Position numbers and translations under genes: made by a program
Shown: positions 2,537-22,236 of the stretch, piece by piece
How positions within the stretch are numbered: the first letter of the stretch is position 1
How the letters are laid out: each line of letters opens with the position of its first letter
Virus record (IMG/VR): IMGVR_UViG_3300020183_000292
Span: 1-32,070 of that record
Reading direction: 5' to 3' (one strand)
Origin: a virus
DNA length: 32,070 bases
Notes under the pieces: model-generated
Databases searched by the model: none
What the model saw: only the letters and a program-made list of their open reading frames with translations
Told to the model about the DNA's origin: nothing

Positions 2537-2872
2537 TTGGCTGCATTTACTGAAATAACCATTGAAAAAGGTGCTACATTTTTAACCACAGTTAATGTAG
2601 AAGATTCGAATGGTGATGCAATTAATCTTGCTGGCTACACAGCTAATTCTCAAATAAGAAAATCTTATTATTCCACCACGGCGAATAATTTTACTGCCAC
2701 AATAACAGGTGTTGCAAATGGTGAAATTACTTTATCAATGACAGCTGCTAATACATCCAATTTAACAGATGGTCGTGCATTATATGATTTACTGATTACT
2801 TCACCAGCAGGAGAAAAAACTCGTGTGGTTGAAGGCATTGTCACAATATTACCTAATATAACCCAAATTTAG
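2537..2872 (+). CDS. Conserved T4-like virion structural protein (beta-rich, about 110 aa)
   Basis: A TTG start is preferred because AAAGGAGAT lies at normal spacing and the product then begins (M)AAFTEITIEKGATF, a start seen in structural proteins of T4-like aquatic phages. The 111-residue chain is mostly beta: EKGATFLTTVNVEDSNGDAI, LAGYTANSQIRKSYYS, GEITLSMTAANTSNL, ALYDLLITSPAGEKTRVVEG. This looks like an Ig-like or BppU-type N-terminal adaptor used in baseplate and fibre proteins. It is the first gene after a terminator and a candidate late promoter. Exact virion location unknown. Confidence 0.7.
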   Translation: MAAFTEITIEKGATFLTTVNVEDSNGDAINLAGYTANSQIRKSYYSTTANNFTATITGVANGEITLSMTAANTSNLTDGRALYDLLITSPAGEKTRVVEGIVTILPNITQI

Positions 2873-3193: not shown

Positions 3194-4570
3194 ATGGCTA
3201 ACACCGTAATTCAACTTAAATATTCAGATTCTACAGCTACACCTCCATCGTTAAATACCGCTGAACCGGCGTATTCTAATAATTCCAATAAGTTATTCAT
3301 TGGTCAATCAGATGGTTCAGTTGTTGCAATTGGTGGTAAATATTTTACAGCTATTGTAGATGCGGCCACTTCAGCAAATACAGCATCAACAATTGTTAAA
3401 AGAGATAGCAATAATAATTTTACAGCTGGTACTATTACTGCAAATCTTTCTGGTAATGCAACTACAGCTACCACACTAAAAACAGCTCGTGACATTGGTC
3501 TTGCTGGTGATGCAACTGGTAATGTTTCTTTTGATGGTTCACAGAGTGTTACTCTTACAGTTGATCTTACTGATACGGGCGTTTCTGCTGGCACATATGG
3601 TGGTGCTTCGCAGATTCCAGTTTTTGTTGTTGACGCAGAGGGTCGTTTAACTTCAGCCTCTAACACAGCCATTTCTGTTCCGTCAACTTTATCAGTCGCT
3701 GGCGATACAGGTTCAGGAACATTATCACTTAATTCAGATACATTAACGATTGCGGGCCGTGACGGTCTTGCATCTATTTTCGTTGATGCTAACAATACTG
3801 TTTTAGTTGATGTTGACAATACAGTTGTGCGAACAACTGGCGGCACAATCTCTGGCGATTTAGCTGTTACGGGTAACCTAGTTGTTTCTGGTAATACAAT
3901 CACACAAGATGTTGAAATTCTCAAAGTTGAAGACTCTCTCATACAATTAGCTGCAAACAATGCGGCTGATGCGGTTGATATTGGTTTCTTTGGTCAATAC
4001 AATGAAGGTGGAATAAAATATACTGGTTTGATCCGTGATGCTTCTGATTCTGGTAAATTCAAACTTGTAACTGCCGGTACAGTTAAACCTGTAGATGCTA
4101 ATACATTTGATCCTGCTACCTATTCAACTGGTGTATTGGTTGCAAATATTGAATCACAAAGTGTAACTGTTGGTGGTATCAATATTTCTACTCGCCTTAA
4201 TAGTGCTTTTGAACATGCAAACGGTGCTTTTGATAAAGCTAATACTGATTTTACAAATATATCTGTTACTGCTGGTGATTACGGTTCAGCTGCAATTATT
4301 CCTGTATTCAACCTTGTTGCTAATGGTCGTATTGCTTCAATCACGAATACATCAATTGCGATTGGCGCTTCAGCGATTACATCTGGCACATTAGGCGTAG
4401 CTCGTGGTGGTACAGGATTCTCATCTTATACTGCAAACGGTGTTATTATTGGTGGCACTACATCAACATCAGCATTAACTTCTGTTGCTTCTTCTACTGA
4501 AGGGCATGTATTACAGGTTAATGCCTCTGGTATTCCAACATTTGCACACCTTAACGGTGGATCATTCTAA
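3194..4570 (+). CDS. Tail-fibre-like structural protein (458 aa)
   Basis: Start MANTVIQLKYSDSTATPPSL is typical of long fibre-related structural proteins in T4-like aquatic phages. Residues about 85-160 contain an SGNATTATTLKTARDIGL segment followed by DATGNVSFDGSQSVTL, a repeated-shaft motif seen in many fibres. Two copies of a module YG...IPVF....GR(L/I)xSxxNTxI lie near residues 134-165 and 360-390. The string ANGAFDKANTDFTNIS near residue 345 is shared almost base for base with the gene at 5081. The C-terminus ends LNGGSF. No enzymatic motif is visible. Preceded by a candidate late promoter. Confidence 0.75.
   Translation: MANTVIQLKYSDSTATPPSLNTAEPAYSNNSNKLFIGQSDGSVVAIGGKYFTAIVDAATSANTASTIVKRDSNNNFTAGTITANLSGNATTATTLKTARDIGLAGDATGNVSFDGSQSVTLTVDLTDTGVSAGTYGGASQIPVFVVDAEGRLTSASNTAISVPSTLSVAGDTGSGTLSLNSDTLTIAGRDGLASIFVDANNTVLVDVDNTVVRTTGGTISGDLAVTGNLVVSGNTITQDVEILKVEDSLIQLAANNAADAVDIGFFGQYNEGGIKYTGLIRDASDSGKFKLVTAGTVKPVDANTFDPATYSTGVLVANIESQSVTVGGINISTRLNSAFEHANGAFDKANTDFTNISVTAGDYGSAAIIPVFNLVANGRIASITNTSIAIGASAITSGTLGVARGGTGFSSYTANGVIIGGTTSTSALTSVASSTEGHVLQVNASGIPTFAHLNGGSF
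4214..4263 (+). repeat. 50-bp dispersed repeat, copy 1 (other copy 6572-6621)
   Basis: Fifty bases inside the fibre gene at 3194 match 6572-6621 inside the fibre gene at 5081 with a single third-position difference (GGT/GGC). Both encode HANGAFDKANTDFTNIS in frame. It is the clearest sign of recent exchange between the two fibre genes. Confidence 0.8.
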
Positions 4571-5080: not shown

Positions 5081-7000
5081 ATGGCAAATACAGTAATATC
5101 ACTCCGAAGTTCAGGTGTAACGGCAAACACTCCGTCACTTGGTGTTCTTGCAAACGGTGAGTTATCTCTTAACTTCGCTGATGGTATTCTTTATTATAAA
5201 ACTTCATCTAATTCTTTAGGTTCAATCTACACTACTCCGCCAGCTGGACTAAATCAAGAAATACAGTTTAATGATTCTGGTTCTTTTGGTGGTAATTCAT
5301 CTCTTACATTTAATAAAACTACAGGATTATTGTCCACCAATAATCTTACAGCTAATTCAGTAGCCACTACATCTTATGTTCAATTTGGTGATGGTACAAA
5401 ACAATATACTGCTAATTCTGGTGTTGCAAGTGCATTTGCTCAAGCTAATGCGGCTTTTGCACAAGCAAATTCAAATTACATTAGTGCTGTAACAAGATTA
5501 GATGTAACACATTCCGGTTCTTCAGCCTATTTAATTGACCAATATTCTGGTAATAATCCTGCCATATATGTTATCGCAGGAGAAACAATAGCATTTTATT
5601 TGAATGTAACTGGTCATCCTTTTATGATTCGTGTTTCAAGTGGAGGTGCAAATTACAGCACTGGATTGATACATGTTGCAACCGATGGAACAGTATCAAC
5701 AGATTCAAGCGCTCAAGGTAAAGTAACCGGAACGTTATACTGGAAAGTTCCAGCTGTATTAGCAGGTAATACTTATGTTTATCAATGTTCTCATCATTCA
5801 GGAATGGTTGGAAACATTAACATTGGTCAACCAAATTCAACGATACTTACTCATGCAAATGAGGCTTTTAACAAAGCTAATTCTGCTAATGTATTAGCAC
5901 AAGGGTCTTTTGATAAGGCTAACTCTGCCAATGTATTAGCACAAGCATCTTTCGATAAAGCTAATTCTGCTAATGTATTAGCACAGGGGTCTTTTGATAA
6001 GGCTAACTCTGCCAATGTATTAGCACAATCTGCTTTTGATAAAGCCAATCAGACTGCACAATTAGCATTTACTACCGTTTCTGCTAATGGAACAAATTTA
6101 GTTGCTGATGCAAATAACGATACACTTACAATTACTTCAACTGTAGCTAATGGTATTTTTGTTACTGGTATTGCCGGCACAGATACGCTAGATATTGGTT
6201 TAATAGATTCAGGTGTAACTGCAAGTGGTTATGGTAGTAATATTCTCGTTCCTACTTTTGTAGTTGATACTAAAGGTCGTTTAACATCAGTATCAAATAC
6301 AACCATTCGTTCAGCAACAACAACACAAACAGGTATTGTTCAATTAGAGGATTCAGTCACATCTACCTCTACAAGTAATGCTGCCACTCCAGCCTCAGTT
6401 AAAACTGCTTATGATTTAGCTAATACCGCCAATGTAACTATTAACTCTGCTTTTAGTAAAGCTAACTCTGCTAATTCTTTAGCACAACAAGCTTTTGATT
6501 TTGCGAACACTATTTCTGGTGGTGCTGCTACTGATAATGTAGCAAGAACAACATCCACAGCTGCATTTAATCATGCAAACGGCGCTTTTGATAAAGCTAA
6601 TACTGATTTTACAAATATATCAACAACAGCTGGTGTTTATGGTAACGCTTCACACGTTCCAGTAATAACGCTTTCTGCCAATGGTCGTATATCAAATGTC
6701 ATAAATACTCAAGTTGATATTTCTACCACACAAGTTACATCGGGTATTTTTGCGTTTGGACGAGGTGGCACAAATGCTACTTCATATACAACAGGTGCTT
6801 TATTAGTATCTAACGGCAGTTCCATTATTTCTTTAGCAAATACTGGTACGGCTGGCACATATGGAAACTCTACTTTTGTTCCAGTTATTACAACAGACGC
6901 TTATGGTCGAATTTCTAGTGTTACAAATACCGCAATAGATGTTACTGGTAGCGGAGCATCTATTGGTGATGTATTAGCTCTTTCAATTGCATTAGGATAA
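5081..7000 (+). CDS. Long tail-fibre protein with embedded cupredoxin-like domain
   Basis: 639 residues starting MANTVISLRSSGVTANTPSL. After an N-terminal adaptor, residues about 136-250 form a cupredoxin-like beta domain with GHPFMIR (His179) and YQCSHHSGMVGNI (Cys236, His239, Met242). The spacing C-x2-H-x2-M equals the copper loop of amicyanin-type cupredoxins. Residues 261-330 are five 14-residue helical repeats (FDKANSANVLAQ). Three YG...P(V/T)...GR(L/I)...NTxI modules follow. Domain naming is by motif; copper binding is inference. The gene abuts the coiled-coil gene and gp13, so a fibre or neck/baseplate-attached appendage is likely. Confidence 0.8.
   Translation: MANTVISLRSSGVTANTPSLGVLANGELSLNFADGILYYKTSSNSLGSIYTTPPAGLNQEIQFNDSGSFGGNSSLTFNKTTGLLSTNNLTANSVATTSYVQFGDGTKQYTANSGVASAFAQANAAFAQANSNYISAVTRLDVTHSGSSAYLIDQYSGNNPAIYVIAGETIAFYLNVTGHPFMIRVSSGGANYSTGLIHVATDGTVSTDSSAQGKVTGTLYWKVPAVLAGNTYVYQCSHHSGMVGNINIGQPNSTILTHANEAFNKANSANVLAQGSFDKANSANVLAQASFDKANSANVLAQGSFDKANSANVLAQSAFDKANQTAQLAFTTVSANGTNLVADANNDTLTITSTVANGIFVTGIAGTDTLDIGLIDSGVTASGYGSNILVPTFVVDTKGRLTSVSNTTIRSATTTQTGIVQLEDSVTSTSTSNAATPASVKTAYDLANTANVTINSAFSKANSANSLAQQAFDFANTISGGAATDNVARTTSTAAFNHANGAFDKANTDFTNISTTAGVYGNASHVPVITLSANGRISNVINTQVDISTTQVTSGIFAFGRGGTNATSYTTGALLVSNGSSIISLANTGTAGTYGNSTFVPVITTDAYGRISSVTNTAIDVTGSGASIGDVLALSIALG
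5861..6070 (+). repeat. Five tandem 42-bp repeats in the fibre gene
   Basis: Five in-frame units of 42 bases (14 residues, core FDKANSANVLAQ) start at 5861, 5903, 5945, 5987 and 6029. Units 2 and 4 are identical at the base level, while 1 and 3 are close to each other, so the array looks like an 84-bp double unit duplicated once. The last unit is diverged. Confidence 0.85.
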
Positions 7001-7003
7001 AAT

Positions 7004-7963
7004 ATGGCAAAACCAACCTCAAGAACTCAATTTAAAGATTATTGCTTACGAAGACTTGGCCATCCAGTTATTGAAATTAATGTGGATGACGACCAAGTAG
7101 AAGATCGTATTGACGATGCTCTTCAATTTTTCCACGACTATCACTTTGATGGTTGTGAAAAGATTTACATGAAACATCAATTCACACAAGAAGATATTGA
7201 TAGACGATGGATCTATGCGCCAGATGCTGTCATATTTGTTAATGCTGTTTTACCATTTGATGATTCAAATTCATCAATTAATATGTTTGACTTACGTTAT
7301 CAATTACGTTTGCATGACTTGTATGACTTTACATCTGTATCTTATGTGTCATATGAAATTACGATGCAACATATTCGCACATTAAATTTATTATTCTCTG
7401 GCACACCACAATTTAGATTTAATCGCCATCAAAATAAATTAATGCTTGATATTGACTGGTCAAGAGATGCAGAAGTTGGTAAATATGTAATTATTGAATG
7501 TTATCGTAAGTTAGAACCGGATACAATTACTTTGACTGGCACAGTAACGGGTAACACATCATCTAATACACTTGTTGGCACATCTACCATATTTGACCAA
7601 GAAATTATTGAAAATGATTTCATTACTTTGAGTAATGGTGTAGAAGTTCAAGTTCGTAAAATTAATTCACCAACAGAAATTGTAATTGCAGCTAATACAT
7701 TAAGTGCGAATGCGACTGCCAACACAATGACCAAAGAGGGTTATTCAGATGTTTGGGACGATAGATTTTTAAAACAATATACTACCGCAAAAATAAAATA
7801 TCAATGGGGTTCTAACTTAAGTAAGTTTGCTGGTGTTCAATTACCTGGCGGAGTAACACTTGATGGTCCAAAAATTATGGAAGAAGCTCAAAGAGAAATT
7901 GATAAAATAGAAGAAGAAATGCAAAGTTATAATGTATTGCCAAATGATTATTTCATGGGTTAA
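7004..7963 (+). CDS. 13: Neck protein gp13
   Basis: In T4, gp13 and gp14 close the filled head and form the neck to which the tail joins. The 319-residue product (T4 gp13 about 309) begins MAKPTSRTQFKDYCLRRLGH and has the hallmark INVDDDQVEDRIDDALQFF segment, then YHFDGCEK.YMKHQ and an IYECYRKLEP-like block. A Thr/Asn-rich beta insertion (about residues 178-245) sits before the conserved C-terminal part (DRFLKQYTTAKIKYQWGSNL, GPKIMEEAQREI). It starts four bases after the fibre gene and precedes gp14 by six, so it is co-transcribed with the neck and terminase genes. Confidence 0.9.
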   Translation: MAKPTSRTQFKDYCLRRLGHPVIEINVDDDQVEDRIDDALQFFHDYHFDGCEKIYMKHQFTQEDIDRRWIYAPDAVIFVNAVLPFDDSNSSINMFDLRYQLRLHDLYDFTSVSYVSYEITMQHIRTLNLLFSGTPQFRFNRHQNKLMLDIDWSRDAEVGKYVIIECYRKLEPDTITLTGTVTGNTSSNTLVGTSTIFDQEIIENDFITLSNGVEVQVRKINSPTEIVIAANTLSANATANTMTKEGYSDVWDDRFLKQYTTAKIKYQWGSNLSKFAGVQLPGGVTLDGPKIMEEAQREIDKIEEEMQSYNVLPNDYFMG

Positions 7964-7969
7964 TAATGA

Positions 7970-8851
7970 ATGGCCACCAATTTATATTTTAATAATTTTC
8001 CAGAGAACATAACTTCAGAGCAACTGCTTGTTGAAGATTTGGTCATTGAATCACTCAAGATTCATGGCATGAGTGTTTTTTATCTTCCAAGATCCAGCCG
8101 TGATACAGTTGATTTTATTTTTGGTGAAGATACTCTTAAGCAATATGTTGAAGCTTATCCTCTTGAGATGTATTTGGAAAATGTTACAGGTATGGAAGGC
8201 GAACAAGACTTTATATCTAAATTTGGTTTAGAAATTCGTGATGAAGTTCAATTACTTGTTTCTCGCCGTAGATTTAAAACAACTATTCCTCAAAATAGAC
8301 CAAAAGAAGGTGATTTAATTTATATTCCTTTGGTGCAAAACTTCTTTGAAATTACTTTTGTAGAACACGAAAATGACCAGGCTATGTTTTATACATTAGG
8401 CCGTGGTCGTGGTGGCAATGTTTATGTGTTTGCTCTTAAACTTAAACAGTTTGTATTTTCTAATGAAATTATTGAAACAGGTATAGCTGAAATTGATGAT
8501 TCAATTAGAAACTATTATCCAAAAACAAAAATTACAATAAGTGCTGGTACTGGTAAATTTATTACTGATGAGTTGGTTTATGTGGGTGCTAATTTAGCTT
8601 CTGCCACAGCTCAAGCTCTTGTTTATGAATTTACTCCAAATACTCATATTGAAGTATATAGAACAATTGGCACATTTAGTTCAGGCACATTAAAAGGAAA
8701 TACAAGTAATGCACAATGGACAATTAGTACCGTTGATACAATGACAGTAATGAATACTGCCTTTGAAGATATACAAGATAATGCTCGTATTGAGGCTGAA
8801 AGTGATAGCATTATTGATTGGACAGAAACAAATCCGTTTGGTGGTGATTAA
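7970..8851 (+). CDS. 14: Neck protein gp14
   Basis: 293 residues (T4 gp14 about 256). The start MATNLYFNNFPENITSEQLLVEDL and the segments KIHGMSVFYLPRSS and DFIFGEDTL are characteristic of gp14, followed by LEMYLENVTGMEGEQDFISKF and RPKEGDLIYIPL. It works with gp13 to complete the head after packaging. It overlaps gene 15 by one base (TAATG) and follows gp13 closely. A C-terminal Ser/Thr-rich stretch with a GTFSSG-like motif resembles the extension in gp13. Assignment firm from sequence pattern and synteny. Confidence 0.9.
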   Translation: MATNLYFNNFPENITSEQLLVEDLVIESLKIHGMSVFYLPRSSRDTVDFIFGEDTLKQYVEAYPLEMYLENVTGMEGEQDFISKFGLEIRDEVQLLVSRRRFKTTIPQNRPKEGDLIYIPLVQNFFEITFVEHENDQAMFYTLGRGRGGNVYVFALKLKQFVFSNEIIETGIAEIDDSIRNYYPKTKITISAGTGKFITDELVYVGANLASATAQALVYEFTPNTHIEVYRTIGTFSSGTLKGNTSNAQWTISTVDTMTVMNTAFEDIQDNARIEAESDSIIDWTETNPFGGD

Positions 8852-14306: not shown

Positions 14307-14852
14307 ATGGCTTTTTCCGTAAATGAATTTAGAAGTCAAATGGTTGGTGACGGCGCTCGTCCAAATCTGTTTGAAGTGTCTATGCCTTTTCCCGTGTTCT
14401 CTGCACCAGGAGATGCACAAACTAAATTAACTTTCATGTGTAAAACAGCACAATTACCAGGTTCAACTATTGGTGTTGTGCCAGTTCAATATTTTGGCCG
14501 TGAATTAAAATTTGTTGGCAATAGAACATTTGCAGACTGGACAATTAACATTATCAATGATGAAGATTTTATCATTCGTAACGCATTTGAAAGATGGATG
14601 AATGGTATTAATAGTCACAATCTTAATGTGCGTAATCCGGCTGCTCTTGCACCGTTAGGATATTCAGTTGATGGCGATGTCAGACAATTTGGCAAAAAAG
14701 GTGATACACTTAAAAGATACAAATTTGTTGGTTTATATCCAACAGATTTAGCTCCAATTGATGTTGATTGGGGCGCTAATGACACAATTGAGGAATTTAC
14801 AGTAACTATGTCCTACCAATGGTGGGAATCAGTTGAAACTGGTGTGGTGTAA
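14307..14852 (+). CDS. 19: Tail tube protein gp19
   Basis: 181 residues (T4 gp19 163). The segments KLTFMCKTAQLPGSTI, VPVQYFGRELKFVGNRTF, DWTINIINDEDFIIRNAFERWM and the late GLYPTDLAPIDVDW are diagnostic for the tube subunit that stacks into hexamers inside the sheath. It has a good ribosome binding site (CAGGAG) and is followed by a strong terminator, so sheath and tube form the end of a late unit. Confidence 0.95.
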   Translation: MAFSVNEFRSQMVGDGARPNLFEVSMPFPVFSAPGDAQTKLTFMCKTAQLPGSTIGVVPVQYFGRELKFVGNRTFADWTINIINDEDFIIRNAFERWMNGINSHNLNVRNPAALAPLGYSVDGDVRQFGKKGDTLKRYKFVGLYPTDLAPIDVDWGANDTIEEFTVTMSYQWWESVETGVV

Positions 14853-21696: not shown

Positions 21697-22236
21697 ATGA
21701 CAATAAGCACTCGTAATCCAACAAATCCCAACTTTCTACAACCAAATAAGTTTCAACTTAATTTTGGTCGTTCACCCAATGTTAGATATTTTTGTCAATC
21801 ATTAAGTGTACCCGGTATTTCTTTGTCTGAAATTCCACAAACTAATCCATTTGTTGATGTGTATATTCCTGGTGAAAAAGCTATATACGATTTATTGAAT
21901 ATTACATTTATTGTTGATGAAGAATTAAGATCATGGCTTGAAATACACGATTGGATTCGTGCTATGACTTTTCCTAAAGAATTTGCTGAATATAGAAATC
22001 TTAGTAAATTAAACAAATATGCAACAAACATTCCAATAAGCAAACCTCAATACTCTGATGCGACTGTTACTTTGCTTTCATCATCAAATACTCCATACTA
22101 TAATATTAAATTTTTTGAAGTATTTCCTACCACTCTTTCTACATTTGTAATGAGTGTGACAGATTCACCAGATACAATCATTACGGCTGATGCTACTTTT
22201 AGATATTCGTATTTTGATGTAGAAAAATTGTTTTAA
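21697..22236 (+). CDS. Tail protein with tube-like fold (gp3 position; tail completion candidate)
   Basis: 179 residues. The N-terminal half has NKFQLNFGRSPNVRYFCQSL, SVPGISLSEIPQTNPFVDVY and a DLLNITFIVDEELRSWLEIHDWI block that follow the same pattern as gp19 in this window (F-C-x5-PG, then a strand pair, then D/E-D/E-(F/L)...W), so it belongs to the tube fold family that includes gp19 and gp54. In T4-like aquatic phages the gene between 23 and uvsY is often labelled gp3, tail completion (T4 gp3 about 176 residues; from memory). It could equally be a baseplate tube initiator. Virion tail role is firm, exact role not. Confidence 0.65.
   Translation: MTISTRNPTNPNFLQPNKFQLNFGRSPNVRYFCQSLSVPGISLSEIPQTNPFVDVYIPGEKAIYDLLNITFIVDEELRSWLEIHDWIRAMTFPKEFAEYRNLSKLNKYATNIPISKPQYSDATVTLLSSSNTPYYNIKFFEVFPTTLSTFVMSVTDSPDTIITADATFRYSYFDVEKLF

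Follow-up and report, generated by a model that had tools for sequence, protein, structure and literature searches.

Does a phage tail fibre carry a genuine type-1 copper site and, if so, what would copper do there? The question is raised by a stretch of viral DNA of 32,070 nucleotides (IMG/VR record IMGVR_UViG_3300020183_000292; this whole stretch is referred to as the window), in which an earlier note had placed a cupredoxin-like domain with an intact copper motif inside a tail fibre. The coordinates given there are exact, i.e. the ORF at 5081-7000 encodes a protein of 639 aa (P0001) and its codons 136-250 correspond to window 5486-5830. The locus comprises the following features, with the support for each in brackets:

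3194..4570, + strand: structural/fibre-like gene, upstream context (phrog_697/3018/7389)
5081..7000, + strand: tail-fibre protein P0001, 639 aa, carrying the domain (ORF; Phage_fiber_2; gene context)
5420..5473, + strand: helix preceding the domain (residues 114-131), a probable stalk (low-confidence full-length model)
5486..5830, + strand: cupredoxin domain, residues 136-250 (AF2 pLDDT 95.6; PDB cupredoxins; PHROG_677)
5615..5617, + strand: His179 in GHPF, predicted type-1 copper ligand, the first of four (95% His in the 79 copies)
5786..5806, + strand: predicted ligand loop C236-S-H-H239-S-G-M242, C-x2-H-x2-M (aligned with plastocyanin/rusticyanin ligand loops)
5837..6082, + strand: long helix that follows the domain (residues 253-334), a probable coiled-coil stalk (low-confidence full-length model; repeat)
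6317..6433, + strand: Phage_fiber_2 repeat, residues 413-451 (Pfam, E 9.7e-13)
7004..7963, + strand: neck/head-tail adaptor gene, downstream context (phrog_211, E 9.8e-42)
7970..8851, + strand: neck protein gene, context (PF11649, E 1.4e-32; phrog_460)

The fibre gene and its predicted copper domain

The P0001 gene is located directly 5' of neck and terminase genes, and its product can be classified as a T4-like tail fibre on the basis of the fibre repeat and the neck, sheath and portal neighbours. The window phage has a T4-like core, i.e. portal, sheath, tube, capsid and terminase, and its capsid protein is 61-63% identical to those of cyanophages and to that of HTVC008M alike. Further, the contig contains two tail-tube paralogues (phrog_45; window 14307-14852 and 21697-22236), the latter immediately after the major capsid gene, as well as a small ORF with a TTG start (window 2537-2872) that resembles an L-shaped tail fibre assembly protein (phrog_1084, phrog_3304).

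The assignment as cupredoxin-like, proposed initially from the motif, is confirmed by a high-confidence AlphaFold model and by PDB structure matches. The domain model, built from an alignment of 37 copies from the window and viral contigs, is all-beta (pLDDT 95.6, pTM 0.88), and together with the PDB matches it identifies a cupredoxin Greek-key beta-barrel. In the 117-residue construct the Cys ends strand 96-101 and is followed by the ligand loop and the last strand, 108-114. From this strand order and the structural alignment we infer that the four ligands would converge in three dimensions. Comparison with the PDB by Foldseek and VIA-align returned mostly type-1 copper proteins (best Z 11.1), the matches including rusticyanin, pseudoazurin, amicyanin, plastocyanin, laccases and the cupredoxin domains of Cu nitrite reductases; EfeO and SufI are exceptions, being cupredoxin folds of other kinds. 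The N-terminal domain of the nitrite reductase 2dv6, for example, can be superposed with 1.9 A over 92 residues (25% identity). At the sequence level, a PDB search with the single window domain returned no cupredoxin, matches coming from family profiles only: a diverse family profile found chiefly type-1 copper proteins (E 1e-4 to 1e-2), with antibody chains and others ranking lower, and its alignments place the His of GHPF on the first His ligand of plastocyanin and CxxHxxM on Cys-His-Met loops.

The predicted ligands are indeed those named previously, H179 in GHPF and C236, H239 and M242 in CSHHSGM. They occur in the expected order and with the C-x2-H-x2-M spacing of amicyanin, and the profile aligns the sites with those of plastocyanin and rusticyanin. 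C236 is the sole cysteine of the 639-aa fibre protein, and the C-x2-H-x2-M motif of P0001 is unique among the 9,621 aa of window ORFs examined; in composition-preserving shuffles of P0001 the motif plus an upstream His arose once in 20,000. Established sequence models recognize the domain to different degrees. PF00127 (Copper-bind) scores 15.7 bits on the window copy and does not reach its gathering score of 21.2, so that the basis of the cupredoxin assignment is the fold together with the family profile; the same model matches 36 of 37 relatives at E<=1 (best 1.1e-5). The amicyanin equivalog TIGR02657 of NCBIfam matches neither the window protein nor the domain despite the equal loop spacing, and the plastocyanin/PetE equivalog TIGR02656 does not match the window protein. 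The C-terminal part of PHROG_677 matches the domain (E 1.2e-26), but P0001 covers just positions 231-408 of this 412-position profile, leaving the N-terminal half unmatched, and it is not a full-length gp9-like (PHROG_677) protein.

Conservation and distribution

The earlier note had held that homologues which keep the fold and freely lose the ligands would speak against a copper site, and had proposed a survey of related fibres. We therefore turned to 79 non-redundant copies that span both ligand sites, with identities to the window copy down to about 20%. The H, C, H and M columns are 95-97% conserved (C 96%, H 96% and M 97% in the loop) and rank among the best-conserved columns. The survey supports a type-1 copper site: 75 of the 79 copies align as HCHM, and 76 keep four ligands if L209 is counted, as it has L at the first site but His in the adjacent column. 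The remaining three copies, L172, L173 and L174, lack three, four and four ligands, respectively. None of 20,000 independent column shuffles reproduced this clustering of losses, a p-value that is optimistic since the sequences are related. No free loss was observed: the few losses are all-or-none, and such joint loss indicates that the four residues are constrained together, as expected for a metal centre. As some contigs were retrieved with patterns over the ligands, retrieval might have biased the tally. It was therefore repeated on copies from whole-record profile searches and tblastn phage matches, where 27 HCHM copies plus L209 were found among 31; the family profile used there had itself been derived mostly from ligand-bearing copies. 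A few duplicated copies tolerate loss of the ligand site, and the persistence of L172, L173 and L174 without the site implies that copper is not needed everywhere for the fold. In one protein (L021) an intact copy is followed by a ligand-free second copy (L021:1291-1581).

The domain is widespread. In a tblastn search 321 of 50,697 phage records match, of which 316 have Synechococcus, Prochlorococcus or cyanophage in their names, and scans of IMG/VR yielded 116 and then at least 498 relatives. Its host proteins include the annotated gp9-like 'baseplate wedge tail fiber connector' of S-RIM8, S-CAM8, S-RIM2 and MA01 as well as fibre proteins of P-SSM2, Sf-CH5 and S-CAM1, and in MA01 the gene is located just 5' of the neck genes, like in the window phage. 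Subtilases linked to the virion form a further context: an annotated subtilisin-like protease of S-H9-1 (L178:1-1824) contains a C-terminal copy. A protein of similar length in ACG-2014j, annotated as hypothetical, has a C-terminal copy, too (L189:1-1749), and an S8-type protease match is joined to the domain in L089:913-3450. A profile search found the domain in S-SM1 and in pelagiphage Mosig, where all four ligands are kept, but not in HTVC008M, S-SRM01, KVP40 or T4. Hence, the expectation that a copper site in a fibre would be unusual has to be qualified for picocyanobacterial phages, in which the domain is common, although the open-access titles, abstracts and passages searched contained no account of phage tail proteins with a domain of the cupredoxin or type-1 copper kind.

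Five matches in cellular genome assemblies were rejected as cellular since they look like phage contigs, L086 and L088 since their genes are arranged as in cyanophages, L087, L089 and L090 since they contain phage or virion-like genes. In L086 (a TMED129 MAG) and L088 (Nonlabens xiamenensis, NZ_RMVE01000006, 188 kb) the ORFs resemble those of the S-WAM1 tail region (L082) in length and order, which suggests that both are phage contigs within assemblies labelled cellular. Two of 81 genomes from the picocyanobacterial family (G084, G087) contain giant reading frames in which a distant copy retains SHPF and CxxHxxM, and phage-like copies are present in a third (G017). Two picocyanobacterial open frames of 1,933 and 1,176 aa (L244, L245) contain a distant cupredoxin-like segment with the ligands; these giant frames are possibly host surface proteins.

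Position in the fibre and possible roles of copper

The notion of a copper-bearing fibre tip has to be abandoned, as the domain occupies residues 136-250 of 639 and lies between helical stretches. The full-length fibre model is of low confidence (pLDDT 43.5) and usable for helix/strand hints only; it predicts helices on both sides of the domain, which makes the domain a knob on the shaft rather than a tip, and beta-rich parts, including the Phage_fiber_2 repeat, beyond the long helix. Inside this predicted helix a 42-bp tandem repeat of about 4.4 copies (window 5865-6049) encodes the 14-aa unit SANVLAQxSFDKAN. Across 156 family matches 45 are C-terminal, 13 are near the N-terminus and the rest are internal, and this range of placements identifies the domain as a mobile module.

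We think it probable, with considerable room for doubt, that this is a genuine type-1 copper domain that serves as mobile tail module of aquatic T4-like phages and forms a knob that stabilizes the fibre or serves in attachment. The predicted site is likely to bind copper, judged from fold and ligand conservation, and as hundreds of related phages keep the four ligands, copper is probably part of virion build or cell attachment. The domain would be inserted between two helical stretches of the fibre; if the fibre is trimeric, by analogy, three copper-binding knobs would surround the shaft. Copper would probably be loaded outside the cell, or at lysis, and may hold the ligand loop in shape rather than carry electrons, while the knob may make the fibre more rigid or serve as a contact to a partner fibre or to the cell surface, the adhesive role being suggested by analogy. 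The biological role of the knob is a guess. A more far-reaching version, in which virion-borne sites are standard in the tails of aquatic, above all picocyanobacterial, T4-like phages and adsorption functionally depends on their copper, or the copper works as redox contact sensor, so that infection would include a metal- or redox-gated step, strikes us as rather doubtful; no earlier description of such a step was found in the literature searched.

Redox activity as such, i.e. a copper that changes its redox state at the cell surface as contact sensor or trigger, or passes electrons, would explain why a full type-1 ligand set including the axial Met and the loop spacing of amicyanin, which is typical of electron-transfer cupredoxins, has been kept instead of a simpler Zn-type site. 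However, neither an electron partner nor a second redox centre could be identified in the fibre, and the occurrence of the domain at varied positions in many unrelated tail proteins is more in keeping with a generic module than with a wired path for electrons, so that we consider this function improbable. Aquatic hosts scavenge trace metals, and fibre copper (or zinc) might serve as bait for a host metal-uptake receptor in the manner of a 'Trojan horse'. Metal ions in phage fibres, along with the bait idea, have been published for iron (PMC11705849). The site described here is on the shaft instead of the tip. Moreover, type-1 copper is buried and not readily handed over, and copper is toxic to picocyanobacteria; we rate the bait mechanism as improbable to the same degree as redox activity.

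Alternatively, the four residues may be kept for folding and packing only, in a metal-free domain. Copies lacking the site still match the family (L172, L173, L174 and the second copy of L021), as this would predict, yet exactly H, C, H and M are kept down to about 20% identity, with the spacing of copper proteins and with joint loss, which renders a metal-free domain quite unlikely. The earlier note had also considered that the fibre may mimic a host electron carrier, and a captured host plastocyanin would be a case of this. Cyanophages do carry petE, and the two cyanophage papers concerned mention plastocyanin as PetE only (PMC3037559, PMC2984593). A recent capture of petE was rejected, as no NCBIfam plastocyanin model matches this protein and the family profile gives plastocyanin, rusticyanin and amicyanin similar scores, i.e. 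it is no nearer to plastocyanin than to the other two. In addition, the domain is part of an extracellular fibre, for which a carrier of the thylakoid lumen is out of reach, and mimicry of this kind is very unlikely.

Significance and comparison with known systems

If the shaft knob binds copper as we propose, the particles of very abundant ocean viruses would count as metalloproteins, each containing several copper centres, and infection would be linked to trace-metal chemistry. The widespread cyanophage annotation 'baseplate wedge tail fiber connector' would gain a concrete, testable biochemical property in the copper content of virions, which is directly measurable in cultured phages, and copper would enter the debate on metals in phage tails as second metal after iron.

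The closest relatives are the gp9-annotated cyanophage connectors of PHROG_677, which contain a homologous cupredoxin domain with the same ligands. In these proteins of about 410-500 aa, encoded between gp7-like and gp8-like genes, the domain is usually C-terminal, whereas in the window it is internal to a 639-aa fibre encoded beside neck genes. The giant picocyanobacterial proteins L244 and L245 share SHPF and C-x2-H-x2-M with the window family, but are cellular frames of 1,176-1,933 aa and only distant matches (E about 1e-6). With the type-1 copper cupredoxins rusticyanin, amicyanin, plastocyanin and pseudoazurin and with the corresponding domains of nitrite reductases such as 2dv6 the window domain has the fold and the His/Cys-x2-His-x2-Met ligands in common; it differs from them in being a module of phage structural proteins with no known electron partner, in the Pro that follows the first His (GHPF) and in a ligand loop that contains no Pro. 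Finally, the HxH iron sites of T4 gp37 and alterophage R22Y are likewise metal sites in a tail fibre, but there iron is held by paired His residues in the trimer shaft, without a cupredoxin fold (PMC11705849).
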